Assembly (NCBI GenBank): GCA_031285645.1 | Contig: JAITVU010000071.1 | Coordinates: 1 to 12,450, forward strand | Source: Oscillospiraceae bacterium | GTDB lineage: Bacteria > Bacillota > Clostridia > Oscillospirales > Ruminococcaceae | Reading direction: 5' to 3' | Length of the DNA: 12,450 nt | Part shown: positions 1 to 12,099 of the stretch, one piece after another | Numbering within the stretch: position 1 is the stretch's first letter | Layout: each line of letters starts with the position of its first letter | Notes under the pieces: generated by a model | Seen by the model: only the letters and a program-made list of their open reading frames with translations | Database searches by the model: none | Told to the model about the DNA's origin: nothing | Made by a program: the position numbers and the translations under genes

Positions 1-1
1 C

Positions 2-736
2 ACCACTGTGCGCGGCCGCGCGCTCAAGGACACGCGGCGGCAAATTCAAATGGTGTTTCAGGATCCTTTTGCTTCCCTCAATCCGCGCATGAGCATTGGC
101 CGCAGCATCCGCGACGTGCTGGATATACATCACGTCGGGCCGCGGGCTCAGCGCCGCGCGGCCGTGGAGAAAATGCTTGACGCCGTGGGATTGGGCGCCG
201 CCAGCTACGACCGTTATCCCCACGAGTTTTCGGGCGGCCAGCGGCAACGGGCCGGCATTGCCCGCGCGCTTGTAATCAGCCCCAAAATCGTTGTGTGCGA
301 CGAGCCTGTTTCGGCGCTTGACGTCTCCGTCCAATCCCAGATTCTCAACATCCTCACCGCGCTCAAAAAAGATCTCGGCCTGTCGTATCTTTTTATCGCC
401 CACGGACTCAATGTTGTGCGTCATCTCTCGGACAAGGTGGCGGTGATGTATCTGGGCCGTTTTGTGGAAACAGCCCCGTGCGACGCGCTTTTCTCCGAGC
501 CCAGGCATCCCTACACACAGGCGCTCATCTCCTCAATCCCCCTGCCCGATCCAAACAGGGCGCTCGGCGACAGGCGCATCATCCTTGACGGCGATATCCC
601 GAGTCCCCTGAATCCGCCGTCAGGCTGCGCCTTCCATACCCGGTGCCGTTACACAAAGGATATTTGTAAAAAGGAGCCGCCGCCCCTTACCGGAGACGGC
701 GGGCATTTGACGGCCTGTCATTTTCCGTTCATATAG
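2..736 (+). CDS. Oligopeptide/dipeptide ABC transporter ATP-binding protein (OppF/DppF type), 5' truncated by window edge
   Basis: This is the cytoplasmic ATPase of a peptide/nickel-type ABC importer. The frame is open from base 2, so the start codon and the Walker A loop lie upstream. Visible in order are the Q-loop (MVFQDPFASLNPR, about nt 50-90), the ABC signature FSGGQRQ (nt 227-247), Walker B (VVCDEP, nt 290-307), the D-loop SALD and the switch histidine in FIAHG (about nt 395-409). The C-terminal oligopeptide-transporter extension follows, with its cysteine pattern GCAFHTRC...DIC near nt 625-668, typical of OppD/OppF/DppD/DppF. Its partner ATPase is probably just upstream (inference). 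No permease sits next to it here. The receptor and both permeases come 4.1 kb later, after three enzyme genes, and they have no ATPase of their own in the window. I infer that this ATPase powers them. The choice between OppF and DppF is not certain. Confidence 0.93.
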   Translation, partial: TTVRGRALKDTRRQIQMVFQDPFASLNPRMSIGRSIRDVLDIHHVGPRAQRRAAVEKMLDAVGLGAASYDRYPHEFSGGQRQRAGIARALVISPKIVVCDEPVSALDVSVQSQILNILTALKKDLGLSYLFIAHGLNVVRHLSDKVAVMYLGRFVETAPCDALFSEPRHPYTQALISSIPLPDPNRALGDRRIILDGDIPSPLNPPSGCAFHTRCRYTKDICKKEPPPLTGDGGHLTACHFPFI

Positions 737-917
737 CGATCCCTCATTCGAGTATACCGGCGGGGAACAATCCTGTTATTCGGCCGCCGCTACACAGAGG
801 GAAACAGCGCCTTCCTGAAAAGTCCCGTCCGTGACGGCCTTTCTAAAGTGTGGCCGCTGGTTTGTTTGCGTACATAATTATCAAAATGATCAATATGAGC
901 AATTGGCAGGTGAATTA

Positions 918-2273
918 ATGGAACAGTCATATTTGCGCCGTCTTGTCGGCCTCTGCCGTGAAAGCGCTGAACTCACAACGGACGTGGAGCGGTCGGCGCG
1001 CCTGTGCCTGCTCGACACTCTGGGCTGTATTCTATACTCAACCACGCTGGCGGACGGCGCGATGATCATGCGCGGGGCCTCAATGTTCGGAACCGGCGAT
1101 TATCCCCTGCCCGCAAGCAAAAACCGCTACACACCGGATACCCTGGCCCTTGTGATGGGCAGTCTATGCCATCTGCGCGAAATGGACGACGTCCACTATT
1201 CGATTGTTCATCCCGGATCCGGTATCATCCCCGCCGCTTATGCGGCTGCCATCATGAAAAACGCCGGACTCGGCGCGCTTCTGTCCGCAATAACGGCCGG
1301 TTACGAGGCGGCGGTCCGCATATCCCGGGCGTCCAATTTTTTGGAGCACCGCCGCCGTGGCTTCCATGCCACGGCGACGATCTGTCCCTTTGGCGCCGCT
1401 ATGGCTGCCGCTTTTATTCTCGATCTGGACGAGGCCAGGACTGTTCAGGCGTTGGGCATCGCCGGTACGCGCACGGGCGGCACATGGGCCTTTGCCCGGG
1501 ACAACGCAATGACAAAGCGTCTGCATCCGGGCCTCGCGGCCCGCGACGGCTTGCAGGCCGCCTGTTTCGCGCTCGCCGGCGTCAGCGGTCCCGAATTCAT
1601 ATTGGACGCGCGGGAAGGCGGCTTCTTCCGCGTATTCACGGGCGATTGCGATATGGAGGCGCTTTTGGCTCCCGCAAAACCCGCCATTTCAGAGACGGAA
1701 TACAAGTATTACGCCTCCTGTAAATCCGCGCATTCCCCCATTGAGGCCGCCATTCAAATATATAAGGATAACATGGGCAAAAAGCCCGCGAAAATAGAGG
1801 TGAAGATCAATTCCTCCGCCATGAGCATGGCCGGACGGCTGCACGAAAAAGGCTCCGTCGTTTCCGCTCAGCTCTCCATTCCCTATGCCGTCGCATTGGG
1901 GCTGAGCGGCCATACGGGCGGCGCGCTTGATTATACCGACGACATGGTGTCGGACGACGCGCTTTTCGGCCTCGCAGCCCTTGTCGAGATGGCGATCAGT
2001 CCTGAGATGGATCAGATACGCGCCGAAAAACACCGCTCGGCGGCGCGGCTCAAAGTTTATTGGGAAGATGGCGGCTCTTCCGGCGCCTTTGTCCAGACGC
2101 CCAGGGGCGCGATGGATAACCCGCTCAGCGAAGAGGAAATTATCCATAAATTCCTGACCCTCTCATCAAGCGCTGTCGGGCACAGCGTGGCCAGGGAGCT
2201 TGTATCAACCATTATGGAGGGTCCGCATTATATCCGTATACGCGAACTGGTCGACATGATCGGCTTTGATTGA
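918..2273 (+). CDS. MmgE/PrpD family protein (candidate iminodisuccinate-type epimerase)
   Basis: This encodes a 451-residue cytoplasmic protein of full MmgE/PrpD length. I chose ATG 918 over an in-frame ATG at 831: a ribosome-binding-like GGCAGG lies just upstream, and the extra 29 residues are unlike the family. Family landmarks (451-residue numbering) are the DD pair near 90-91, HPG at 98-100, FHATAT with H150, TKRLHPG with K200 and H203, the CKSAHSP loop with H272, and a PYAVA stretch near 322. The histidines and lysine fall where catalytic residues occur in relatives such as cis-aconitate decarboxylase. Known family activities include 2-methylcitrate dehydratase, cis-aconitate decarboxylase and iminodisuccinate epimerase. 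No methylcitrate synthase or lyase is nearby. The next gene is an ArgH-like C-N lyase, which favours the epimerase-type role (inference). A structured element fills most of the 155-bp gap after it. Confidence 0.92.
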   Translation: MEQSYLRRLVGLCRESAELTTDVERSARLCLLDTLGCILYSTTLADGAMIMRGASMFGTGDYPLPASKNRYTPDTLALVMGSLCHLREMDDVHYSIVHPGSGIIPAAYAAAIMKNAGLGALLSAITAGYEAAVRISRASNFLEHRRRGFHATATICPFGAAMAAAFILDLDEARTVQALGIAGTRTGGTWAFARDNAMTKRLHPGLAARDGLQAACFALAGVSGPEFILDAREGGFFRVFTGDCDMEALLAPAKPAISETEYKYYASCKSAHSPIEAAIQIYKDNMGKKPAKIEVKINSSAMSMAGRLHEKGSVVSAQLSIPYAVALGLSGHTGGALDYTDDMVSDDALFGLAALVEMAISPEMDQIRAEKHRSAARLKVYWEDGGSSGAFVQTPRGAMDNPLSEEEIIHKFLTLSSSAVGHSVARELVSTIMEGPHYIRIRELVDMIGFD

Positions 2274-2293
2274 CAGCGGAATGCGGAGTCTTC

Positions 2294-2374
2294 CCGCGCC
2301 ATTGCCATGAAAACACTTGTGTTTTCATGGGGCGGGCACAGCCCGCCGACGCGCCGCGCGCGTCAATGGCGCGG
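2294..2374. repeat. Cloverleaf palindromic element, copy 1
   Basis: This is an 81-bp structure between the MmgE/PrpD and lyase genes. A perfect 10-bp outer stem (CCGCGCCATT at 2294-2303 with AATGGCGCGG at 2365-2374) encloses three contiguous hairpins: AT-rich 2305-2330 (12-bp arms), GC-rich 2331-2347 (GGCGGGC, loop ACA) and 2348-2364 (GACGCGC, loop CGC). All arms are perfectly paired. Confidence 0.85.
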
Positions 2375-2428
2375 CAGCACGGCTAATCAAGGGCGCACCC
2401 CATCAAAGAAGACGAAAGGACGGCTAAA

Positions 2429-3931
2429 ATGGAACAGGCAGCGCAATCCAAGGGCTTTTTTGAACGCACGCAAGGCAAAATGAACCCCCTTGTACTCGAG
2501 CATTACTATAAAAAAAGGATGGGCGATATCGCCGGCTCATCAATGTATCTTTTAAACGTCATGCGCGCCCATGTGTGCATGCTCGCCAAACAGGACATCA
2601 TTCCCCGCGACATGGCAAAGGCCCTTTCGGGCGCGCTCAGTGGCTGGACCGCTTCCGGCGGCATCACCCACGATATGCTCGATCCCGCGTTTGAGGACCT
2701 CTACCTCAATATGGAGCATATGCTTAAAGAAAAGCTCGGCGCCGAGACGGCCGGATATCTGCCTGTGGCGCGTAGCCGCAACGATGTCGAGGCCGCCATG
2801 TGGCGCATGGAGATAAGGGAAAAACTCGTCGTACTTGCGCGGTCCGTCATCCGCCATGCGTCTATCTTAATCAAGCGCGCCGGGGATAACATTGACAGCG
2901 CCATGCCGGGTTACACGTATCACCAGCAGGCCCAGCCCCTGACGCTCGGCTTCCAGCTGGCCGCCTTATCCGCGGCGCAAATTCGCGATGCCGAGCGCAT
3001 TGTACAGAGCGTTAAGCGCCTCAACCTTAATCCTTTGGGTTCGGCCGCCCTGGCGGGCACGGGCTATCCCATTGATCGCGAATACACGGCGCGGCTCCTC
3101 GGTTTCGACGGCGTCACGGACAACTGCGAGGATGCCGTCGCCGCCTGCGACTACATGCTTGAGTCGGCGTCGGCCGCCTTGCTCACGCTCACAACTCTCT
3201 CCCGATTTGCGGAAGAAGTGATCAAATGGTGCCAGAACGAGGCGGGTTTTGCCGCCCTGCCCGACGACATCATCGACTCATCCTCCATCATGCCGCAGAA
3301 ACGCAATCCCGTCGTCCCCGCGACGGTACGGGCGCAGGCGCGGCTTGCCGCTGGCGATTTTGCCGGAATGGCCGCCGCCTGCACAGTCGCCTATGAAGCC
3401 AGCCGGGACGTCACCATTGTCTATGAAAAAACAATCGCGTTTATCGAGAACGCCTACGATATGTGCATGGTGTCGAGCGCGTACGCCGAGGGTATCACAT
3501 TCAATTTGGATAAGCTGCGCGGCGCGCTTGACCTCGGCTTTTCCACCACAACCGAAATCGCGGATACGCTTGTCCGGGACGGGAATATGCCCTTCAGGAT
3601 CGCACATGCCCTTGTCGGCGGTCTGGTCGGCTCTCTCTATGATGCCGGAAAAGGCCCCGAGAACCTGACCTATGAAGCCCTGCGTGCGTTTGCCCGTGAA
3701 GAAACCGGCAAAGACCTGCCCATTACAAAAGCACAGTTTGACGCGGCCAACAATGTGGATGAAAACATTGCCCGGCGCGGCCATACGGGCGGCACGTCAC
3801 GGGATCAGGTGCAAAAATCGCTGCATAACCAGCAAAACCGCCTGTCCGGCCTTGAAAAAGAGCTGACAGCGTTTGAAGCGCAGTGGAAAGAGGCCGGAAC
3901 GCTGCTTGACGCGGCCTGCCGAGGCATATAG
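2429..3931 (+). CDS. Argininosuccinate lyase-like C-N lyase of the aspartase/fumarase superfamily
   Basis: This is a 500-residue protein, somewhat longer than typical ArgH (about 450-470). The superfamily signature SSSIMPQKRNP is at residues 284-294 and carries the mobile-loop catalytic serine and the Lys/Asn substrate ligands. The N-terminal ARSRND (114-119), MPGYTYHQQAQP (159-170) and NPLGSAALAGTGYPIDRE (201-218) are clearly ArgH-like. Several usual ArgH positions are changed. The GYTH histidine is Tyr164, with a His following at 165; the HT before ARSRND is PV; the IH of the EDIH motif is LY. This suggests a substrate other than argininosuccinate (inference). Known relatives with altered substrates are iminodisuccinate C-N lyase and EDDS lyase, which release fumarate from N-substituted aspartates. 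The start has a good AAAGGA site 8 bases upstream. Its place between an importer and a MmgE/PrpD gene supports catabolism. Annotation pipelines might call it argH. Confidence 0.9.
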   Translation: MEQAAQSKGFFERTQGKMNPLVLEHYYKKRMGDIAGSSMYLLNVMRAHVCMLAKQDIIPRDMAKALSGALSGWTASGGITHDMLDPAFEDLYLNMEHMLKEKLGAETAGYLPVARSRNDVEAAMWRMEIREKLVVLARSVIRHASILIKRAGDNIDSAMPGYTYHQQAQPLTLGFQLAALSAAQIRDAERIVQSVKRLNLNPLGSAALAGTGYPIDREYTARLLGFDGVTDNCEDAVAACDYMLESASAALLTLTTLSRFAEEVIKWCQNEAGFAALPDDIIDSSSIMPQKRNPVVPATVRAQARLAAGDFAGMAAACTVAYEASRDVTIVYEKTIAFIENAYDMCMVSSAYAEGITFNLDKLRGALDLGFSTTTEIADTLVRDGNMPFRIAHALVGGLVGSLYDAGKGPENLTYEALRAFAREETGKDLPITKAQFDAANNVDENIARRGHTGGTSRDQVQKSLHNQQNRLSGLEKELTAFEAQWKEAGTLLDAACRGI

Positions 3932-3971
3932 GTTTTAACGCGCCGCAGCGCTATAAAGGGAAGGAACAGAC

Positions 3972-4433
3972 ATGGGTTATGTTGAGGAACTGCGCGCCCT
4001 GATTGGCCACAGACGGATAATACTGCCCGGGAGTCTGGTCATTATACGGAATCCGGACGGCCGCATCTTAATGCAGCAGCGCAAGTACCCGTATGGCCGG
4101 TGGGCGCTTCCGGGCGGTCTGATGGATCCCGGGGAATCCACTGTCGATACGGCCAAACGGGAGATCAGGGAGGAAACCGGGCTTGAGGTCGATGACCTCA
4201 AGCTGCTCGGCGTTTATTCGGGCCCGGAATACCTTTGCGCCGCGCCGAACGGCGATGAGTGGTATGCCGTGACCACCGCTTACATGACGGGCCGCTACAG
4301 CGGCGCTCTGTGTGTGAACGACGATGAATCCCTCGCGTTTGACTGGTTTGATCCGTATCGTCTTCCTGCCGACATGTCTCCGACGAACCGTTATATAATC
4401 AGCGATTACCTTGATTATATCGGCAATCTATAG
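3972..4433 (+). CDS. NUDIX hydrolase
   Basis: This is a 153-residue soluble Nudix protein with a complete Nudix box at residues 49-71. Gly49 is followed by Glu55, then REIREETGL (63-71), which fits Gx5Ex7REUxEExGU exactly. The metal-binding glutamates E67 and E68 are present. Family members hydrolyse nucleoside diphosphates linked to another group. The sequence does not reveal the substrate. It starts 40 bases after the lyase stop, with a purine-rich AAGGGAAGGAA site upstream, so it is probably co-transcribed with the lyase. Its link to the catabolic pathway is unclear: it may be housekeeping, or it may remove a nucleotide-linked by-product (speculation). The 421-bp region after it is full of repeats and separates it from the receptor gene. 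Confidence 0.92.
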   Translation: MGYVEELRALIGHRRIILPGSLVIIRNPDGRILMQQRKYPYGRWALPGGLMDPGESTVDTAKREIREETGLEVDDLKLLGVYSGPEYLCAAPNGDEWYAVTTAYMTGRYSGALCVNDDESLAFDWFDPYRLPADMSPTNRYIISDYLDYIGNL

Positions 4434-4442
4434 CTGTACAGG

Positions 4443-4499
4443 TTTAAAATTGATACACAATTTTAAATGCGCGGCAAACGCCGCGCGCCGCGAAGCGGC
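4443..4499. repeat. Cloverleaf palindromic element, copy 2 (outer stem degenerate)
   Basis: Three adjacent hairpins in the same order as copy 1: AT-rich 4443-4467 (10-bp arms), GC-rich 4469-4486 (GCGCGGC arms) and 4487-4499 (GCCGC, loop GAA). The outer stem is weak; TATAG/CTATA outside the hairpins may be its remnant. It directly follows the Nudix gene. Confidence 0.65.
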
Positions 4500-4530
4500 C
4501 TATATAGTGAATTCGCTTTAAGACTAACTC

Positions 4531-4634
4531 ATACTAATCCGCTTTTAAAATCAGATACTTAACTATCGCTCAAAACGCCTTTTTTCCAAAACGCATCGCG
4601 CCATTTTATCTGCTTTTTAATGGGATATTAGTAT
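4531..4634. repeat. MITE-like element, copy 1
   Basis: This is a 104-bp element with inverted ends ATACTAAT (4531-4538) and ATTAGTAT (4627-4634). The inner right half (CGCTCAAAACG..., AAACGCATCGC, TTTTATCTGCTTTT, GGATATTAGTAT) closely matches the element at 10591-10676 in the same orientation. It has no coding capacity. Confidence 0.75.
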
Positions 4635-4687
4635 AAATAGAATGCACGCGCTCTGTCTCGCAGGCTTTTTTAAGTGGTTTAACTATA

Positions 4688-4783
4688 CTTGCCGCATTGT
4701 CATATCCACGCGATGCGTGACAGCGGGCAAAGCCCGCTGTGGTTTAAAACTGTATCAGTTTCAAACCTATAATGACTATATAA
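4688..4783. repeat. Cloverleaf palindromic element, copy 3
   Basis: A 96-bp element with ends CTTGCCGCAT and TGACTATATAA, both shared with the copy at 8503-8599. The outer stem is GTCAT/ATGAC with flanking pairs. The hairpins are 4707-4719 (CACGC, loop GAT), 4720-4740 (ACAGCGGGC, loop AAA) and 4741-4767 (12-bp AT-rich arms, one A-C mismatch). Orientation is opposite to copies 1 and 2. Confidence 0.8.
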
Positions 4784-4854
4784 TATATGCGTAAGGCTAA
4801 GCCTTCATATAACGCGGCGCTGCCGCACAATCCAAACATTAAGAGGAGAGAAAA

Positions 4855-6471
4855 ATGAACAGGATTAAAAAAATCTTACCCCTGATGCTGGCCATGGCAC
4901 TCATTATAACCCTTGCCGGGTGCAATGGCGGCGATTCAGGCAGTCCGTCCTCAGACGCCTCTCAATCCGCTGTGTCTGCCGATTCGTCACAGGCTCAGTC
5001 CAGTCCCACGGATGCCCCTTCAGATGAACTCAAAGACCTTATCGTCGCCACTGGCACGGACGCGTCAACCTTGGACCCCCATTTGTGCACCGACTCGGCG
5101 ACGGAAGTCATCAACAAGAATATCTATCAAAATCTGGTGCGCTATACGGCTGAAATGGAAATTGTCCCCGAACTCGCCACCGAGTGGACGACATCGGAGG
5201 ACGGAAAAACATGGCGCTTTACACTGCGCGACGATTTAAAATTCCACGACGGTACCGATTTTAACGCTGAAGCGGTCAAGATCAACTTCGAGCGTATCCT
5301 CGCCGAGGAGACCGCCTCCCCACGCCGCTCCGTTTTCGCCATGATTGAGTCTGTCACGGTTGTGGACCCGACTCATGTCGACATTCTCACCTCCTATCCC
5401 TGCGGATCTTTCCTTCAGCAGCTTTGCCACCCGGCGGGCGGCATGATCAGCCCGGCAGCCATAGAAACGCACGGGATCGAAAACCTCGGTCAAAATCCCT
5501 GCGGCACCGGCCCCCTGATGCTTAAAGAGTGGACACCCGGCGAAAAACTGGTCTTTGATATCTTCCAGGATTATTACGCCGGCGCGCCCAAGGTGAAAAG
5601 CGTCACGATGAATATTGTCCCCGACAGCTCCACCCGCGCGATGCTTATTGAATCCGGTCAGTGCGATGTGGCGCTGCGCCTGCCCGTCACCGAGATTGAG
5701 CGCCTGCGCGGCGACGCCAACCTCACCGTAACCGAGGGGTCCACCGTCATGACGATGTACATTGCGCTCAACAACACAAAAGGGGCGCTTCAGGACCCCA
5801 ATGTGCGCCGCGCGCTCAATTTGGCGGTGGATATTGATTCCATTGTTAAAAATGTGGTCTCCAATTTCTCCGAGGCGGCCGATTCCGTCATCTCCAAACA
5901 CACGTGGGGACATGCCTCCATCGGCGCCTATCCCTATGATCCGGAGCAGGCCAAACAGCTGCTTAAAGACGCCGGTCATGAAAACCTTGAAATCACGCTT
6001 TGGACGCCTGTCGGCCGCTATCTGATGGACATCCAGGTCGCGGAGGCCATTCAGGCGCAGCTCGCCGACGTCGGCGTCACACTCAATATTCAGCAGTGGG
6101 AATTCCAGGCTTTGATGGAAGAGGTTAAAAAAGCTGAATTTGATGCAGTCCTCCTTGGCTGGAGCCCCTCCACCGCCGATGCCGATCAGGGACTCTATCC
6201 TGTCTTCCACTCCACCCAGCACCCGCCCCAGTCCAACCGCGCGCTTTATTCGAACGCCGATGTGGACACGCTGCTTGAGCAAGCCCGGGAGGAAGTGGAC
6301 GCGACAAAACGCGCCGACCTCTACAAGCAGGCTCAGCAGATTATTATGGATGACGCCGCCTGGCTCCTGCTTTATTACCCCAACCAGGCGCTTGTCACAA
6401 CCAAGGATGTGTCCGGTATTGAGCTGATCCCCACAGAGCATATGCTGTTCGCCAACGTAGAGAAGAAATAA
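4855..6471 (+). CDS. ABC transporter substrate-binding lipoprotein, family 5 (peptide/nickel/opine type)
   Basis: This is a 538-residue extracellular receptor. It begins with a lipoprotein signal peptide: basic MNRIKK, a hydrophobic core, then the lipobox LAGC with the lipidated Cys at residue 23. A Ser/Asp/Gln-rich flexible linker follows to about residue 57. The family-5 signature lies near residues 121-147 (RFTLRDDLKFHDGTDF and the following AEAVKINFERI). Length and layout are normal for DppA/OppA-like receptors. An AAGAGGAG ribosome binding site lies 6 bases before the ATG. Known ligands of the family include peptides, nickel chelates, opines and aminopolycarboxylates such as EDTA complexes. 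The last would suit the adjacent enzymes (inference). The next gene is the first permease, after a 174-bp gap holding a large structured palindrome. That palindrome might lower permease expression relative to the receptor. A 514-codon antisense frame here is only a shadow. Confidence 0.95.
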   Translation: MNRIKKILPLMLAMALIITLAGCNGGDSGSPSSDASQSAVSADSSQAQSSPTDAPSDELKDLIVATGTDASTLDPHLCTDSATEVINKNIYQNLVRYTAEMEIVPELATEWTTSEDGKTWRFTLRDDLKFHDGTDFNAEAVKINFERILAEETASPRRSVFAMIESVTVVDPTHVDILTSYPCGSFLQQLCHPAGGMISPAAIETHGIENLGQNPCGTGPLMLKEWTPGEKLVFDIFQDYYAGAPKVKSVTMNIVPDSSTRAMLIESGQCDVALRLPVTEIERLRGDANLTVTEGSTVMTMYIALNNTKGALQDPNVRRALNLAVDIDSIVKNVVSNFSEAADSVISKHTWGHASIGAYPYDPEQAKQLLKDAGHENLEITLWTPVGRYLMDIQVAEAIQAQLADVGVTLNIQQWEFQALMEEVKKAEFDAVLLGWSPSTADADQGLYPVFHSTQHPPQSNRALYSNADVDTLLEQAREEVDATKRADLYKQAQQIIMDDAAWLLLYYPNQALVTTKDVSGIELIPTEHMLFANVEKK

Positions 6472-6489
6472 GCTATTCGGGCAGCTTGC

Positions 6490-6578
6490 CCGCGCGCATG
6501 TGTTTCTTTGAAACACATATACAAGGGGCTCTTTAGAGCCCCTTGTATTCCAAACCGCCTGGCGGTTTGGGCGCGCGG
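6490..6578. repeat. Cloverleaf palindromic element, copy 4
   Basis: An 89-bp element between the receptor and first permease genes. Perfect 8-bp outer stem CCGCGCGC (6490-6497)/GCGCGCGG (6571-6578). The hairpins are 6498-6518 (9-bp arms, AT-rich), 6519-6548 (13-bp arms, loop TTTA) and 6550-6570 (10-bp arms around one T). A further outer stem TTCGGGC (6476-6482)/GCCCGAA (6603-6609) is possible. No U-tract follows the hairpins. Confidence 0.85.
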
Positions 6579-6645
6579 ATATGTGCGGATTCACCCGGGT
6601 ATGCCCGAAAGAATACTTTTTACGCCACACAAAAAGGAGACGACC

Positions 6646-7563
6646 ATGGCCGTTTACATCGCCAAAAAAATAGGCCTTACTTTTGTGGTGCTCTTTTGCG
6701 CGGCGACATGCTCGTTTTTCCTGTTGCGCCTGATCCCCGGCGACCCCGCCGAAGCGCTCGCGGGCCCGCAGGCCACACAAAGCGACGTCGCGGCGGTGCG
6801 GGCATCCCTCAACCTCGACAAGCCCATCCCGCTCCAGTACACAGCTTACATGGGCAATCTTCTCAAAGGGGATCTCGGCTATTCATACCGCTCACGGCGG
6901 CCCGTTCTCGACGAGGTACTCGCGCGCTGGCCCAATACACTGCGCCTGTCGCTGACAAGCATGCTTGTGGCCGTCGTCATCGGGGTGCCGGTCGGGATTT
7001 TCGCGGCCCGGCGGCGCGGAAAACTGGGCGACACCTTGAGCATGGGGATCTCTTTTCTTGGAATTTCGATGCCCTCGTTTTGGCTCGGCATGCTGCTGAT
7101 CCTGCTCTTTTCCGTGCGCTTCAAACTTCTGCCTTTCTACGGGATGGATTCGCCGCTCAACTATATCCTGCCCAGCCTGACGCTGGGGCTCGGCATCGCC
7201 GCCAATATCGCGCGGCTCACGCGTGTGAGCATGCTTGAAGTTCTGGATCAGGATTACATCCGCACCGCGCGCGGTAAAGGCGTGTCCGAAGCCGGCGTCG
7301 TCTATGTCCACGCTTTGCGCAACGCGGCCGTGTCAATTATCACCATCATCGGCCTGCAGCTCGGCGCGCTTTTGGGCGGCCAGGTCGTTACCGAAACGCT
7401 CTTCTCGTGGCCGGGGCTCGGCCGGATGATCGTGGATGCGTTGACGGCGCGGGACTATATGGTCGTGCAGGGCGGTATTCTGGTCCTGGCGCTCACCTTT
7501 ACCATACTCAACCTGCTCACCGACATCTGCTATGCAGTGCTGGACCCGAGAATCAGGTTATAG
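6646..7563 (+). CDS. ABC transporter permease, DppB/OppB family
   Basis: This is a 305-residue inner-membrane permease of the BPD type. It has a hydrophobic N-terminal segment followed by the conserved RLIPGDPAE (about residues 26-34), which is diagnostic of DppB/OppB. Several membrane spans follow, and then the EAA-type loop YIRTARGKGVSEAGVVYVHA near residues 204-223. The C-terminus ends with the usual DPRIRL. I chose ATG 6646 because AAAAAGGAG precedes it at a proper distance and it gives the standard family length. An in-frame upstream ATG at 6508 would add 46 residues translated from inside a palindromic repeat. The second permease follows after only 7 bases, so the two are surely co-transcribed and should form the heterodimeric channel. 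No dedicated ATPase follows, so the ATPase gene at the left edge is the likely partner. Confidence 0.95.
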   Translation: MAVYIAKKIGLTFVVLFCAATCSFFLLRLIPGDPAEALAGPQATQSDVAAVRASLNLDKPIPLQYTAYMGNLLKGDLGYSYRSRRPVLDEVLARWPNTLRLSLTSMLVAVVIGVPVGIFAARRRGKLGDTLSMGISFLGISMPSFWLGMLLILLFSVRFKLLPFYGMDSPLNYILPSLTLGLGIAANIARLTRVSMLEVLDQDYIRTARGKGVSEAGVVYVHALRNAAVSIITIIGLQLGALLGGQVVTETLFSWPGLGRMIVDALTARDYMVVQGGILVLALTFTILNLLTDICYAVLDPRIRL

Positions 7564-7570
7564 GCGGTGA

Positions 7571-8410
7571 ATGAAAATGCTTAAAAATAGCCTGGGATTT
7601 TTCAGGCGGCCGTCAACCCTGATCGCGGCGGTCATCTTTCTCATATTGATCATTGTATGCCTGTTCGGCACATCGATCGCCCCCTATCCCCCGTATGAGC
7701 AGAATCTGGAGAACAAATTGCAGCCCCCCGGAGGCGGCCATTTGTTCGGAACGGATGACTTTGGCCGGGATCTGTTCAGCCGGGTTCTGGCCGGGGCGAA
7801 GTATTCGCTGTCGGCGGGGCTCGTCTCCGTTCTGGTCGGCCTTACGGGCGGGTTGCTGCTCGGCGTTCCCGCCGGTTACTACGGCGGCTGGCTCGACAGG
7901 CTTGTGATGCTGATCTGTGACACCATGCTGGCTTTCCCCGGTATCTTGATGGCCATGGCGCTTTCGATGGTGCTCGGGCAGGGACGCTTTACGCCGATGA
8001 TTGCCGTCGGCATCAGCTCCATCCCCGTGTTTGCGCGCCTGGTGCGCTCGCAGTTTCTTTCCATACGCGAGCGGCAGTATATTGAGGCGGCCCGCGCCGC
8101 GGGCGCCGGGGATCTGCGTATTGCGCTGTTCTACATCCTGCCCAATGCTTTTGGCACTGTTATGGTGCAGGCGACGCTGCGCATGGGCACGGCCATCATC
8201 ACGGCGGCGACCCTCAGTTTTCTCGGCCTCGGCGCACAGCCTCCGGAACCGGAATGGGGATCGATGCTCAATGCCGCGCGGGCCTATTTTTTCAGCGCGC
8301 CCCACCTCGCCGTTTTTCCCGGCCTTGCCATAACCATAACGGTGGTGGCTGTCAATATACTCGGCGATTCCCTACGGGATTATCTGGACCCCAGGCTCCG
8401 GGAACGTTAA
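7571..8410 (+). CDS. ABC transporter permease, DppC/OppC family
   Basis: This is a 279-residue inner-membrane permease, the usual DppC/OppC length. It has an N-terminal transmembrane helix (about residues 15-37), the conserved FGTDDFGRDLFSRVL (about 58-72) and later spans. The EAA loop YIEAARAAGAGDLRI is followed by LPNAFG and by TLSFLGLGAQPPEPEWG, all hallmark DppC motifs. The protein ends in DYLDPRLRER. The start lies just after the dppB-like stop, and its ribosome binding site (GGCGGTGA) overlaps the end of the upstream gene, which suggests translational coupling. An in-frame ATG two codons later is an alternative start. The 233-bp stretch downstream carries two back-to-back cloverleaf palindromes before the isomerase gene. 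Confidence 0.95.
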   Translation: MKMLKNSLGFFRRPSTLIAAVIFLILIIVCLFGTSIAPYPPYEQNLENKLQPPGGGHLFGTDDFGRDLFSRVLAGAKYSLSAGLVSVLVGLTGGLLLGVPAGYYGGWLDRLVMLICDTMLAFPGILMAMALSMVLGQGRFTPMIAVGISSIPVFARLVRSQFLSIRERQYIEAARAAGAGDLRIALFYILPNAFGTVMVQATLRMGTAIITAATLSFLGLGAQPPEPEWGSMLNAARAYFFSAPHLAVFPGLAITITVVAVNILGDSLRDYLDPRLRER

Positions 8411-8429
8411 CAAGGCTGTTTTTATAGCC

Positions 8430-8503
8430 GGTTAACTTAAAAATGCTACCGCGTTTTTAAGACGCGACGCATGCCGCGCACCGCTCTACGAGCGGTGTTA
8501 ACC
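8430..8503. repeat. Cloverleaf palindromic element, copy 5
   Basis: A 74-bp element after the dppC-like gene. Outer stem GGTTAAC (8430-8436)/GTTAACC (8497-8503). The hairpins are AT-rich 8436-8461 (CTTAAAAA/TTTTTAAG), a weak central one near 8464-8479 (CGCG/CGCG) and 8480-8496 (ACCGCT, loop CTACG). It directly abuts copy 6, which has the opposite orientation. Confidence 0.7.
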
Positions 8504-8599
8504 TTGCCGCATAGTCAGTTGCACGCCGAAGGTGTGCCAGCGGGCGTATACCCGCTGGTTGAAAATGCAAATTCATTTTCAACTTAACTGACTATATAA
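8503..8599. repeat. Cloverleaf palindromic element, copy 6
   Basis: A 97-bp element with ends CTTGCCGCAT and TGACTATATAA, as in copy 3. The 10-bp outer stem is ATAGTCAGTT (8511-8520)/AACTGACTAT (8586-8595). The hairpins are 8521-8537 (GCACGCC, loop GAA, one G-T pair), 8538-8557 (CAGCGGG/CCCGCTG) and 8558-8583 (GTTGAAAATG/CATTTTCAAC). It lies just upstream of the isomerase gene. Confidence 0.85.
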
Positions 8600-8643
8600 C
8601 TGAATATAAACGATTGTGAAGTCATTTTTACGGGAGGTTTAAA

Positions 8644-9096
8644 ATGAATATTATTATCGGCGGTGATCGTTCCGGTTTTGAACTGAAACAAAAAGTACTT
8701 AAAAAACTTGAGGCGGACGGGCACGCCGTCACCCATGTCGGCAGCTATTCGGCCGATGAAAACGTTGATTTCCCCGATGTGGCGCGCAAAATATGCAAAG
8801 CCATCCTCAGCGGCGACGCGCAGCGCGGCATTATGGTCTGCGGGACCGGCGTCGGCGCCGCGATTGCGTGCAACAAGGTGCGCGGTATCCGCGCTTCCGT
8901 TGTCCACGATATCTATACGGCGCATCAGTGCGTGGAGCACGACGATGTTCAGGTGATGGCCATGGGCGGACAGATTGTCGGCGACGTCGTCGCTTACGAG
9001 CTGATCGATCTCTTTTTAAACGCCCGCTACTCCGGCGATGAGATGTACCGAATCCGCCTGGAAAAACTGGAACAAATGGAAGTCGACAAGGATTGA
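8644..9096 (+). CDS. RpiB/LacA/LacB family isomerase, atypical phosphate-binding residues
   Basis: This 150-residue cytoplasmic protein matches RpiB in full length and fold signature. MNIIIGGDRSGFELK corresponds to the usual GxDHxGFxLK. CGTGVGAAIACNKVRGIRA carries the catalytic cysteine at residue 66, and EHDD holds the ring-opening histidine at residue 99. Both positions agree with E. coli RpiB numbering. The residues that grip the sugar phosphate in true RpiB are altered. The His of DH is Arg9; HND reads HDD; and the C-terminal GGRH motif reads GDEM, losing its arginine. RpiB-fold enzymes acting on unphosphorylated substrates are known (for example DhuI), so the substrate here may not be ribose 5-phosphate (inference). 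GGGAGG lies 6 bases before the ATG. It is the last gene of the island before a strong terminator. Confidence 0.9.
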   Translation: MNIIIGGDRSGFELKQKVLKKLEADGHAVTHVGSYSADENVDFPDVARKICKAILSGDAQRGIMVCGTGVGAAIACNKVRGIRASVVHDIYTAHQCVEHDDVQVMAMGGQIVGDVVAYELIDLFLNARYSGDEMYRIRLEKLEQMEVDKD

Positions 9097-9155
9097 TATC
9101 GACGTACGGGAGCGCTCACGGAGCATTCCAAAAGTACTGACAACAATTAATAAAC

Positions 9156-9190
9156 AAAAACCGGCGTCCAATAATTGGACGCCGGTTTTT
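9156..9190. terminator. Bidirectional rho-independent terminator
   Basis: A perfect 16-bp stem (AAAAACCGGCGTCCAA, loop TAA) with an A-run on one side and a T-run on the other. It lies between the convergent isomerase (+) and ArsC/Spx-like (-) genes and can stop both. Confidence 0.95.
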
Positions 9191-9195
9191 GCCTG

Positions 9196-9555
9196 TTACT
9201 GAGTGACCACAAGTTTTTCACTCCATTGCTTCTCATTAAACCCAATCAGGATAAAATCTTTCGCGATCAAAAGCGGCCTTTTAACCAGCATACCGTCCGT
9301 CGCCAGCAATGCGAGCTGATCCTCTTCGCGCATTTCGGGCAGCCGATCCTTGAGCTTCAGTTCCTTGTAGAGAAGGCCGCTCGTATTAAAAAATCGCTTC
9401 AAAGGCGCTCCGCTCAAGGCATGCCAGGCCCTGAGCTCGTCCAATGCGGGATTCTCGGTTTTAATCTCCCTCGGCTGGAACTCAATGTGATGATCCTCCA
9501 GCCATTTCTTTGCCTTTTTACATGTCGAGCAGTTGGTGTAGCACAAGAAAACCAT
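9196..9555 (-). CDS. ArsC/Spx-family thioredoxin-fold protein
   Basis: This is a 119-residue small soluble protein of the ArsC/Spx/YffB superfamily. The N-terminus VFLCYTNCSTCKKAKKWL carries a CxxC at Cys9-Cys12, and an extra Cys5 is present. The conserved GMLVKRPLLI, with the family's Lys-Arg-Pro, lies near residues 88-97. Relatives include arsenate reductases, the redox regulator Spx, MgsR and uncharacterised ArsC-like proteins. No arsenic resistance genes are nearby, so a general thiol-redox or regulatory role is as likely as arsenate reduction. The start has a strong AAGGAGG site. A TTGTAT-17-TATAAT promoter lies directly upstream, though its predicted RNA start would fall within or next to the ribosome binding site. 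The gene ends against the isomerase gene across a shared bidirectional terminator. Confidence 0.9.
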   Translation of the reverse strand: MVFLCYTNCSTCKKAKKWLEDHHIEFQPREIKTENPALDELRAWHALSGAPLKRFFNTSGLLYKELKLKDRLPEMREEDQLALLATDGMLVKRPLLIAKDFILIGFNEKQWSEKLVVTQ

Positions 9556-9733: not shown

Positions 9734-10126
9734 TTGCGGAAAGGAGAATGCTTTATACAAGGAAGTATACCGCAAAAATGCCCCGCATGCGCACAGGAAA
9801 TGACCGTCCGCCTTCTGCGGTGTTCCGCATGCCAAACCGAGGTTCAGGGCGCATTCAGCCTCGACCGTTTTTCGAGGCTCTCGCCCGAAAACCTCAATTT
9901 TCTCGAGATTTTCATCCGCTGCCGCGGCAGCCTCAAGGATGTCGGCGCGATTCTGGATATTTCTTATCCGACGGCGCGCAACCGATTGGACGCCTTAATC
10001 GCGGCGCTCGGTTTTGAGGATACCTCCTCCGCAGCGGCGCGGCGCATGGATATTCTTACCCAGCTTAAGGAAGGGCTTATTACCACCGAAGAAGCGCTCA
10101 TTGCGCTCGGTGAAAATAATAATTAA
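9734..10126 (+). CDS. DUF2089 family protein (zinc ribbon plus helix-turn-helix)
   Basis: This encodes about 130 residues from the TTG at 9734, or about 123 from the ATA at 9755. The N-terminal zinc-ribbon has two Cys pairs, CPAC and CSAC. DUF2089 hallmarks follow: FSRLSPENLNFLEIFIRCRG, then SLKDVGAILDISYPTARNRL, which reads as an HTH. The function is not established; a transcription factor is plausible. The start is unclear. The TTG at 9734 has no Shine-Dalgarno. The best AAGGAG (9741-9746) is correctly spaced only for the rare codon ATA at 9755. The ATG at 9748 is 1 base from that site and in another frame, and it would join the DUF2089 frame only if the A-run at 9774-9778 were one base shorter. 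A strong promoter lies at 9666-9694. The SHOCT-like gene follows 30 bases later, a pairing seen elsewhere in Clostridia. Confidence 0.82.
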   Translation: MRKGECFIQGSIPQKCPACAQEMTVRLLRCSACQTEVQGAFSLDRFSRLSPENLNFLEIFIRCRGSLKDVGAILDISYPTARNRLDALIAALGFEDTSSAAARRMDILTQLKEGLITTEEALIALGENNN

Positions 10127-10156: not shown

Positions 10157-10591
10157 ATGAATGAAGAACGCACAATGATTTTGGAAATGCTCAAGAACGG
10201 CGACATTACGGTTGAGGAGGCGGAGCGCCTTATGGACGCCATACCCAGGGAAAGCGACAGCCTCACTGTCAAGGCATCCGGCGCTCAGGGCCTGGCGCCC
10301 AAACGCATTGTTGTGCTTGTCACTGAGGACGACAAGGCGAAGGTCAATGTCAAGGTCCCCTTTTCCCTGGTAAGGGCAGGCCTCAAGATCGGCAAGGCAT
10401 TCGGCGGATTCAGCGCCAGGAACGCCGACAGCGAAGCGGAGGCGCGGGCATTCGAGATGCTTCAGGAACTGGATATCGATGAGATTCTGGCCAGCATCAG
10501 CGACGGCGAAATAGAACTGCCCTATACCATGGTTGATGTGGATAATATTGAAGACGGCAAGGTCCAGCATGTTAAGGTTACACTGGAATAA
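10157..10591 (+). CDS. SHOCT-like domain protein, partner of the DUF2089 gene
   Basis: This is a 144-residue soluble protein. Residues 6-29 (TMILEMLKNGDITVEEAERL and on) form a SHOCT-like helical hairpin, the short 'level of gene product plus TVEEA' motif often found at the start of DUF4097/YvlB-type proteins. The rest is an acidic mixed alpha/beta region without recognisable catalytic motifs and without a membrane span. It lies 30 bases after the DUF2089 gene and should be co-transcribed. Its ribosome binding site, AAAGGGGGAG, is separated from the ATG by a small GC hairpin. Folding of that hairpin leaves an 8-base gap, close to ideal spacing. Its stop codon shares one base with the start of a MITE-like repeat. 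Function unknown; an anti-sigma or partner role for the DUF2089 protein is only a guess. Confidence 0.85.
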   Translation: MNEERTMILEMLKNGDITVEEAERLMDAIPRESDSLTVKASGAQGLAPKRIVVLVTEDDKAKVNVKVPFSLVRAGLKIGKAFGGFSARNADSEAEARAFEMLQELDIDEILASISDGEIELPYTMVDVDNIEDGKVQHVKVTLE

Positions 10592-11409: not shown

Positions 11410-12099
11410 TTACAGCAGTTCCTTCCTGTGCATTGCGTAAAGTCGCCTGCTCAGGCAAAATCGCTGGGGCAAGGCCGAAAGATCATCGGCGCGCAGTTTT
11501 GCCGTCATGGGTATTTTAAGATTGGGGGACACCAAAAAACCGTCGTCATGTTTTGTCATGGTCCTCGGCACGCAGACACAGTTAAAAGCGTTCGTCACCG
11601 CAACCGTAAAGACCGGATTGCTCTGCGCCGCGCCCCATATTCCGGCAACAACCATACTGCTGTTATAATCGCCCTTCGCTATATACTGCGAGCCAATGAT
11701 TATATGAGCACCCATGTCGCTCGCCACACGCGCCACCTCGGGATGATAAATATCCACATCGACGCAAAGCGCCACGCCGCCAAACTCCGTCGCCAAAACC
11801 TCCAGAACCGTGCTGCGTTTATTCCCCCGGGACGCCGTATTCCAAAAAATATTTTTCTGCGCGCCCAGAACACGGCCCTCCGGCGATATCAGGCACATAC
11901 ACTGATAACCCATCAACATAAACCGCTCCGGCACAAGATAAACTTCGTAATGCTTGGCATACTTGCAGCAGCGGCTTATATATTCCTTTGACTGCTCCTC
12001 CGGGACGGCGGCGCCGGAATCAGACGCAAACGCGACAAAATTGCTGCCCCATACGGGCGAACCAAACGGCTCGATAACACCGAGAAACAACTCCGTCAT
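11410..12099 (-). CDS. Carbon-nitrogen hydrolase (nitrilase superfamily), short N-terminus
   Basis: This is a 229-residue cytoplasmic protein, shorter than typical nitrilase-superfamily members (about 260-300). GGVALCVDVDIYHPEVARV (residues 107-125) matches the family's nucleophile region, with Cys112 as nucleophile and the HPE after it. GAQKNIFW supplies the catalytic lysine (Lys82). The catalytic glutamate is doubtful: the usual VVFPE strand seems to read VAFASD (residues 22-27), and the only PE-like motif upstream of Lys82, VPERF (Glu58), sits too close to it. The start is well bounded, since an in-frame TGA lies 33 bases upstream with no other start between. An ext-10 promoter (12151-12179) precedes it and a strong terminator follows. 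It may be a divergent amidase or a non-catalytic homologue. The family acts on amides, nitriles and N-carbamoyl compounds; the substrate here is unknown. Confidence 0.85.
   Translation of the reverse strand: MTELFLGVIEPFGSPVWGSNFVAFASDSGAAVPEEQSKEYISRCCKYAKHYEVYLVPERFMLMGYQCMCLISPEGRVLGAQKNIFWNTASRGNKRSTVLEVLATEFGGVALCVDVDIYHPEVARVASDMGAHIIIGSQYIAKGDYNSSMVVAGIWGAAQSNPVFTVAVTNAFNCVCVPRTMTKHDDGFLVSPNLKIPMTAKLRADDLSALPQRFCLSRRLYAMHRKELL

Follow-up and report, generated by a model that had tools for sequence, protein, structure and literature searches.

Contig JAITVU010000071.1 of the draft genome of an Oscillospiraceae bacterium (GCA_031285645.1; 2.24 Mb, 428 contigs, 70.55% complete) forms the window analysed here, 12,450 bp in length and designated C405 (C, G and L numbers denote contigs, genomes and compared regions). 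Eight genes on the + strand, at bases 2-9096, encode in order a DppF-type ATP-binding cassette (ABC) ATPase, an MmgE/PrpD protein, an ArgH-like lyase, a Nudix protein, a family-5 receptor, the permeases DppB and DppC and an RpiB-type isomerase. With moderate confidence, this operon is proposed to import a natural N-substituted aspartate and to split its C-N bond, the MmgE/PrpD protein being a probable C2 epimerase. The Dpp-type importer would bring into the cell a small N-substituted aspartate, whether an aminopolycarboxylate, an opine or a sugar-aspartate adduct, the MmgE/PrpD protein would interconvert the stereoisomers at the aspartyl C2 through removal and return of a proton, and the lyase would cleave the C-N bond of one stereoisomer, yielding fumarate and an amine. 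Import and cleavage are proposed from families and residues and epimerisation from the pairing and the chemistry of the family. The sequence itself shows the gene set, the placement of the lyase outside the ArgH clade, the retained catalytic residues and the recurrence of the pair, while the substrate, the reactions and their order are inferred. Open reading frame and family checks bear out the gene set described in an earlier note on this DNA, in which an adjacent MmgE/PrpD protein and ArgH-like lyase are flanked by peptide-type importer genes, and none of the eight genes is an arginine or methylcitrate gene, as that note also stated.

The ArgH-like lyase and its active site

The window lyase passes the argH model TIGR00838 (310.6 bits, cut-off 279.5). 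This model is non-discriminating, because the lyases of regions L140 and L141, which lie outside the ArgH clade, pass it too; the lyase of L007, the nearest relative, falls just short (277.8). The tree built from 46 lyases places 17 ArgH proteins in a clade (support 100/100), with the window lyase and its L007 relative both outside it. Rows from the genome samples entered this tree only with the RSRND motif, removal of identical or contained rows reduced the set from 48 to 40, and a further six rows lacking the motif were added by hand; the lyase frames of L104, L105, L109 and L110, masked by longer antisense frames, are nonetheless in the tree, L104 and L109 as L076 and L077. Approximately unbiased (AU) tests accommodate the window and L007 lyases as sister to all ArgH (p 0.53) and as sister to ethylenediaminedisuccinate (EDDS) lyase (p 0.49), while a grouping that unites them with the L140 and L141 lyases is rejected (p 0.02). 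The free tree contains no supported grouping with EDDS lyase. The genome also carries a true ArgH (617.4 bits), in a cluster of argG, argC, argJ and argB that is interrupted by two other frames.

The lyase shares with ArgH the fold family, the succinyl-side residues and the Ser of the catalytic loop. Residues R117, N118, D119, T163, S285, M288, P289, K291 and N293, present in 17 of 17 ArgH and in 24-26 of 26 other lyases, are retained, and fumarate-forming chemistry is therefore expected. By contrast, at least six residues invariant across the 17 ArgH (a class taken from the lyase tree, so that its invariance is partly by construction) have been lost, through the changes H92Y, Q120V, H164Y, G284S, D295V and Y324A. 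Together, the pattern suggests an intact fumarate side and catalytic loop but a remodelled amine side. Position 164, which we take to be the site of the general-acid His, is His in 25 of 26 other non-ArgH lyases, the exception being EDDS lyase (Gln); the window lyase has Tyr. Among 45 lyases (the outgroup left out), this His is missing only in the window, L007 and EDDS lyases. Judged by the tree, the residues and the separate true ArgH of the genome, the window lyase is not a biosynthetic ArgH, and the distinction drawn in the earlier note is thus upheld.

EDDS lyase of Chelativorans BNC1 (PDB 6rx8, 6g3d) belongs to the same superfamily and also lacks the general-acid His, and its R112, N113, S280, K286 and N288 have kept equivalents in the window lyase. 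The residues near the substrate named in PMC12363623 are R112, N113, Q159, N288, D290 and Y320; the window lyase agrees at three of these six, with Y164, V295 and A324 at the equivalents of Q159, D290 and Y320. The 6rx8 sequence appears to be engineered, since it has M at 290 and 320, and the wild-type letters used here are those given in PMC12363623. Overall, the window lyase matches EDDS lyase no better than true ArgH (172.9 vs 198.4 bits). Structures of the two window enzymes predicted from two-row alignments reached a mean predicted local distance difference test (pLDDT) score of 51.0 and 41.4, and the models were not used.

Elsewhere in the tree, ArgH-like lyases of about 500 residues from L098, L099, L105, L106 and L108 stand beside sugar-type importers and ROK-like or amidohydrolase-like genes, as judged by eye. 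By their placement, these proteins are a different, well-supported sub-lineage, a second uncharacterised group of putative catabolic lyases.

The MmgE/PrpD partner

GTG 831 is the first codon of the MmgE/PrpD frame, but related proteins begin later, and translation may actually start at ATG 918. In line with the earlier note, the protein is by family score not a 2-methylcitrate dehydratase: the two corresponding models give 22.1 and 20.8 bits against cut-offs of 950 and 575, and PrpB, the one methylcitrate cycle gene sought, has no match in the genome, of which about 30% is missing. These scores bear on the idea that the two genes belong to ordinary metabolism, a 2-methylcitrate dehydratase and a divergent argininosuccinate lyase being neighbours by chance. 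That idea can draw on the TIGR00838 score and on the accommodated position of the lyase as sister to all ArgH. It is nevertheless highly improbable, given the true ArgH in an arginine cluster, the lost ArgH-invariant residues, the poor dehydratase scores, the lack of a PrpB match, the conservation of the pair in L007 and the fact that the L140 and L141 lyases pass the argH cut-off as well.

In Agrobacterium tumefaciens BY6, iminodisuccinate (IDS) is reportedly degraded by an epimerase and a stereoselective C-N lyase, in work said to be that of Cokesa in 2004. Among solved structures, the window MmgE/PrpD protein best matches B. subtilis 'IRG1' at 89.6 bits, followed by IDS epimerase at 68.3 bits. 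Family residues H127, H179 and K229, equivalent to His99, His150 and Lys198 of IDS epimerase, are kept, together with K292 and H301. His99 and Tyr145 of IDS epimerase are proposed to act as two bases (PMC7347537, PMC12290011). The first of these is thus conserved; the Tyr145 column holds His173 in the window protein and His in all three members of its clade, or the neighbouring Arg174 under another gap placement. Tyr does occupy this column in PrpD from L140, L141 and L142.

In a tree of 51 PrpD sequences, the window protein forms a clade (100/100) with those of L007 and L041, among proteins mostly from its own phylum. Grouping this clade with IDS epimerase is rejected (AU p 0.0002), as is grouping it with the proteins of L140, L141 and L142 (AU p 0.0002). 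The former rejection is weaker than its p-value suggests, because the IDS epimerase (270 residues), IRG1 and cis-aconitate decarboxylase references are fragments on long branches. The specific link to IDS epimerase made in the earlier note is therefore not supported, in view of both the tree and the replacement of the second proposed base. The resemblance to the BY6 system lies in the combination of an MmgE/PrpD protein with a C-N lyase and in the conserved catalytic His.

An operon for degradation of the synthetic chelators IDS or EDDS, as in BY6, would have the same two enzyme folds, and EDDS lyase is accommodated as sister of the window lyase. However, the PrpD grouping with IDS epimerase is rejected, Tyr145 is not kept, and D290 and Y320 of EDDS lyase are replaced. 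The record name of the nearest relative, Lab288P3bin58, presumably denotes a termite-gut origin, a setting in which a man-made chelator is unlikely to serve as food. Such an operon is very unlikely, and IDS itself is an unlikely substrate; the preference of the earlier note for a natural compound over a synthetic chelator fits these findings.

Recurrence of the enzyme pair

The nearest counterpart of the pair occurs in L007 (WREE01000015.1, the Symbiobacteriaceae metagenome-assembled genome Lab288P3bin58), in which genes for a lyase (57% identity to that of the window), a DUF2087 protein, a 335-residue protein of no assigned family and a PrpD protein (51% identity) share one strand. Genome G341 (region L041) displays the arrangement DppD-DppF-PrpD, with DppF preceding PrpD as in the window. 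On plasmids, PrpD and lyase genes are separated by 4 bp in L140 (Agrobacterium sp. 33MFTa1.1) and share 4 bp in L141 (Cereibacter sphaeroides KD131). The L140 and L141 clusters resemble the window in their tightly adjoining PrpD and ArgH-like lyase genes with an importer, but differ in belonging to other sub-lineages of both enzymes, in the importer being of the polar amino-acid type, and in the presence of asparaginase, GntR and SIS genes and, in L140, a PfkB kinase. The pair thus recurs in L007, L140 and L141, in the first with no importer beside it and in the other two from different sub-lineages.

The FrlB-like SIS proteins of L140 and L141 score 69.4 and 81.4 bits to PRK11382 (cut-off 430), and the PfkB kinases of L140 and of the L143 cluster resemble fructoselysine 6-kinase (153.1 and 116.5 bits, cut-off 247). 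Since both sets of matches lie below the curated cut-offs, the term "fructosyl-amino-acid-like" denotes resemblance only. The link of PrpD-lyase pairs to such clusters is new here; no title on an MmgE/PrpD and ArgH-like lyase operon was found in the open-access literature searched, a scope outside which most subscription papers lie. In L143, from another C. sphaeroides plasmid, the kinase-like gene is located upstream and the PrpD gene, intact in KD131, is internally deleted to 77 residues (8774-9004).

These clusters raise the possibility of a sugar-aspartate substrate, an Amadori-type adduct that the lyase would split into fumarate and an amino sugar, with the RpiB-type isomerase handling the sugar part. 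The genes that accompany the L140 and L141 pairs and the kinase of the L143 cluster are consistent with this, as is the accessory RpiB gene of the window. On the other hand, the window proteins scanned include neither a SIS deglycase nor a PfkB kinase nor an asparaginase, and the window enzymes do not group with their L140 and L141 counterparts in either AU test. Known fructose-asparagine use already frees the amino acid by means of a deglycase, which also counts against such an adduct; on balance it is unlikely as the substrate.

ArgH-like lyases are further found in Dpp-type importer operons without PrpD (L061, L062 and L131). Among the plasmid matches listed, those of L061 and L062 are the top two for EDDS lyase. 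The operon of L061 (Agrobacterium vitis) may be decaying, as its DppB-like and receptor-like matches are split over two frames each (11513-14933). Across the plasmid lyase neighbourhoods, which were picked from the listed matches rather than at random and include two true ArgH by tree (L132 and L146), a Dpp-type importer occurs in 3 of 13.

Wider sampling yielded one new member of the window clade. In a sample of 398 genomes of the phylum, the window-clade PrpD is found beyond the window in G207 (the genome of L007) and G341, and the window-clade lyase in G207 only. A 100-genome sample gives three matches besides the genome itself, the best of them with 30% identity; apart from the window, no match among 291 genomes of the class exceeds 283.1 bits, the lyase of the window is the sole match at E 1e-72 across 394 genomes of the order, and samples of 8 and 4 genomes return only G341 and G207 themselves. 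Within these samples the lyase-PrpD pair is rare, yet by its tree positions drawn from different lineages of both enzymes. Region L095, where about 8 kb and several frames separate PrpD from the lyase, was excluded from the pair counts. Distant lyase-superfamily genes (25.7 to 40.1 bits) lie near MmgE/PrpD in 4 of 20 regions from the phylum (L052, L053, L056 and L059), and in L059 (1524-4240) such a gene directly adjoins the MmgE/PrpD gene.

Several observations weigh against the proposed import and cleavage of an N-substituted aspartate. Besides the rejected grouping with IDS epimerase and the replacement of Tyr145, no ABC importer stands beside the pair in L007. The G341 assembly (92% complete) has no lyase of the window type, its best match reaching 224.9 bits with an ArgH-like score, although the contig breaks off directly behind PrpD. 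A PrpD neighbour is present in 3 of the 13 plasmid lyase neighbourhoods (including the copy deleted to 77 residues). Conversely, an ArgH-like lyase occurs in none of eight plasmid PrpD neighbourhoods, likewise picked from the listed matches (>60 bits), and in none of the 20 PrpD regions fetched from the phylum, some of which come from the same genome (at least 100 bits). Within the operon, a 421-bp gap with a promoter-like site may split the enzyme genes from the receptor and permeases, and the Nudix and RpiB genes have no assigned step in the proposed pathway. To our knowledge, none of the proteins in the window clade has a reported activity or ligand.

Part of this evidence favours separate substrates, the lyase cleaving an N-substituted aspartate and the MmgE/PrpD protein acting on another di- or tricarboxylate, in the manner of methylsuccinate isomerase or cis-aconitate decarboxylase. 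The MmgE/PrpD family is functionally diverse (PMC12290011), and the best solved match of the window protein is 'IRG1'. Moreover, its clade sits among mostly own-phylum proteins whose regions show no ArgH-like lyase neighbour, and in G341 PrpD is present with no window-type lyase detected. Against this, ArgH-like lyases are paired with two separate PrpD lineages, which argues for a substrate common to both enzymes. Separate substrates are accordingly rather doubtful, and an N-substituted aspartate handled by both enzymes is preferred.

Importer, neighbouring genes and significance

The Dpp-type importer is probably complete, with the receptor, two permeases and one ATPase encoded in the window and DppD on contig C8 of the same genome, the two contigs being unjoined. 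Contig C8 ends with dppD and 68 codons of the DppF N-terminus. With DppF of L041 as the reference, the C8 piece extends to residue 89, and position 106 pairs with residue 8 of the window piece; because the window ATPase lacks exactly the part of DppF found on C8, the two contigs are probably neighbours. Base 1 is thus a mere contig end, and the gene set probably extends upstream. Window DppF is 62% identical to the DppF beside PrpD in G341, against 51% to that of contig C408 of its own genome. The G341 ATPases are 62% identical to those of the window and C8, closer than the one other DppD-DppF pair of the window genome that was compared. The family-5 receptor scores 303.5 bits to GsiB, below the cut-off of 594. 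A reading centred on a nickel or peptide importer was dropped, as the receptor stays below all 11 cut-offs listed.

The Nudix protein lies below the cut-offs of all 21 NCBIfam families listed. The RpiB-type isomerase is one of four PF02502 genes in the genome, with 29-38% identity to the other three, and is therefore not the sole copy available for housekeeping. The Nudix and RpiB proteins may act on the amine or sugar moiety of the substrate, or may have no connection with the pathway.

Table 1. Features annotated in the window (coordinates on the forward strand).
Feature	Coordinates	Strand	Evidence
DppF-type ABC ATPase	2..736	+	NCBIfam PRK11308 315.3 bits; 5' end cut by contig start
MmgE/PrpD-family protein, probable C2 epimerase/isomerase	831..2273	+	PF03972 166.5 bits, PF19305 85.9 bits
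ArgH-superfamily C-N lyase, not ArgH	2429..3931	+	PF00206 146.6 bits, PF14698 48 bits; tree, residues
Nudix hydrolase	3972..4433	+	PF00293 81.4 bits
Family-5 extracellular solute-binding lipoprotein	4855..6471	+	PF00496 326.7 bits; lipobox LAGC read directly
Inverted repeat, 13 pairs, between receptor and permease genes	6519..6548	.	Pattern scan
DppB-type permease	6646..7563	+	NCBIfam Opp2B 353.5 bits, cut-off 350
DppC-type permease	7571..8410	+	NCBIfam GsiD 313.4 bits, Opp2C 276.1 bits, both below cut-off
RpiB/LacA/LacB-type isomerase	8644..9096	+	PRK05571 164 bits, cut-off 135
Terminator-like hairpin, 20-pair stem with T-rich tail, between rpiB and convergent Spx-like gene	9152..9194	.	Pattern scan only

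Downstream, a gene for an Spx/MgsR-like protein (9196-9555, - strand; TIGR01617 95.8 bits, cut-off 75.05) is convergent with rpiB, and the hairpin is common to both. It is followed by two adjoining DUF2089-type genes on the + strand, one with a zinc ribbon and a helix-turn-helix (9734-10126) and one with a SHOCT-like start (10157-10591). A 229-residue protein (11410-12099, - strand) has no Pfam match at E 0.001 and resembles nitrilase-type hydrolases by eye. No tRNA is present in the window, and no Rfam element reaches its gathering score.

The described case of this enzyme pair known to us acts on a man-made chelator. A pair in gut-type bacteria, together with separate alphaproteobacterial pairs in fructosyl-amino-acid-like clusters, points to natural N-substituted aspartates as food. 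As a tentative and somewhat unlikely generalisation, MmgE/PrpD epimerases and ArgH-type lyases may have been paired at least twice independently, forming a general natural route for N-substituted aspartates of mixed stereochemistry, sugar-aspartate adducts included, which would release fumarate, a potential electron acceptor for an anaerobe, and of which the Agrobacterium IDS pathway would be one recruited case. Since TIGR00838 passes lyases outside the ArgH clade (those of L140, L141 and the window), automatic annotation can misname them, and such misnaming hides catabolic pathways as well as possible new C-N lyases for synthesis.

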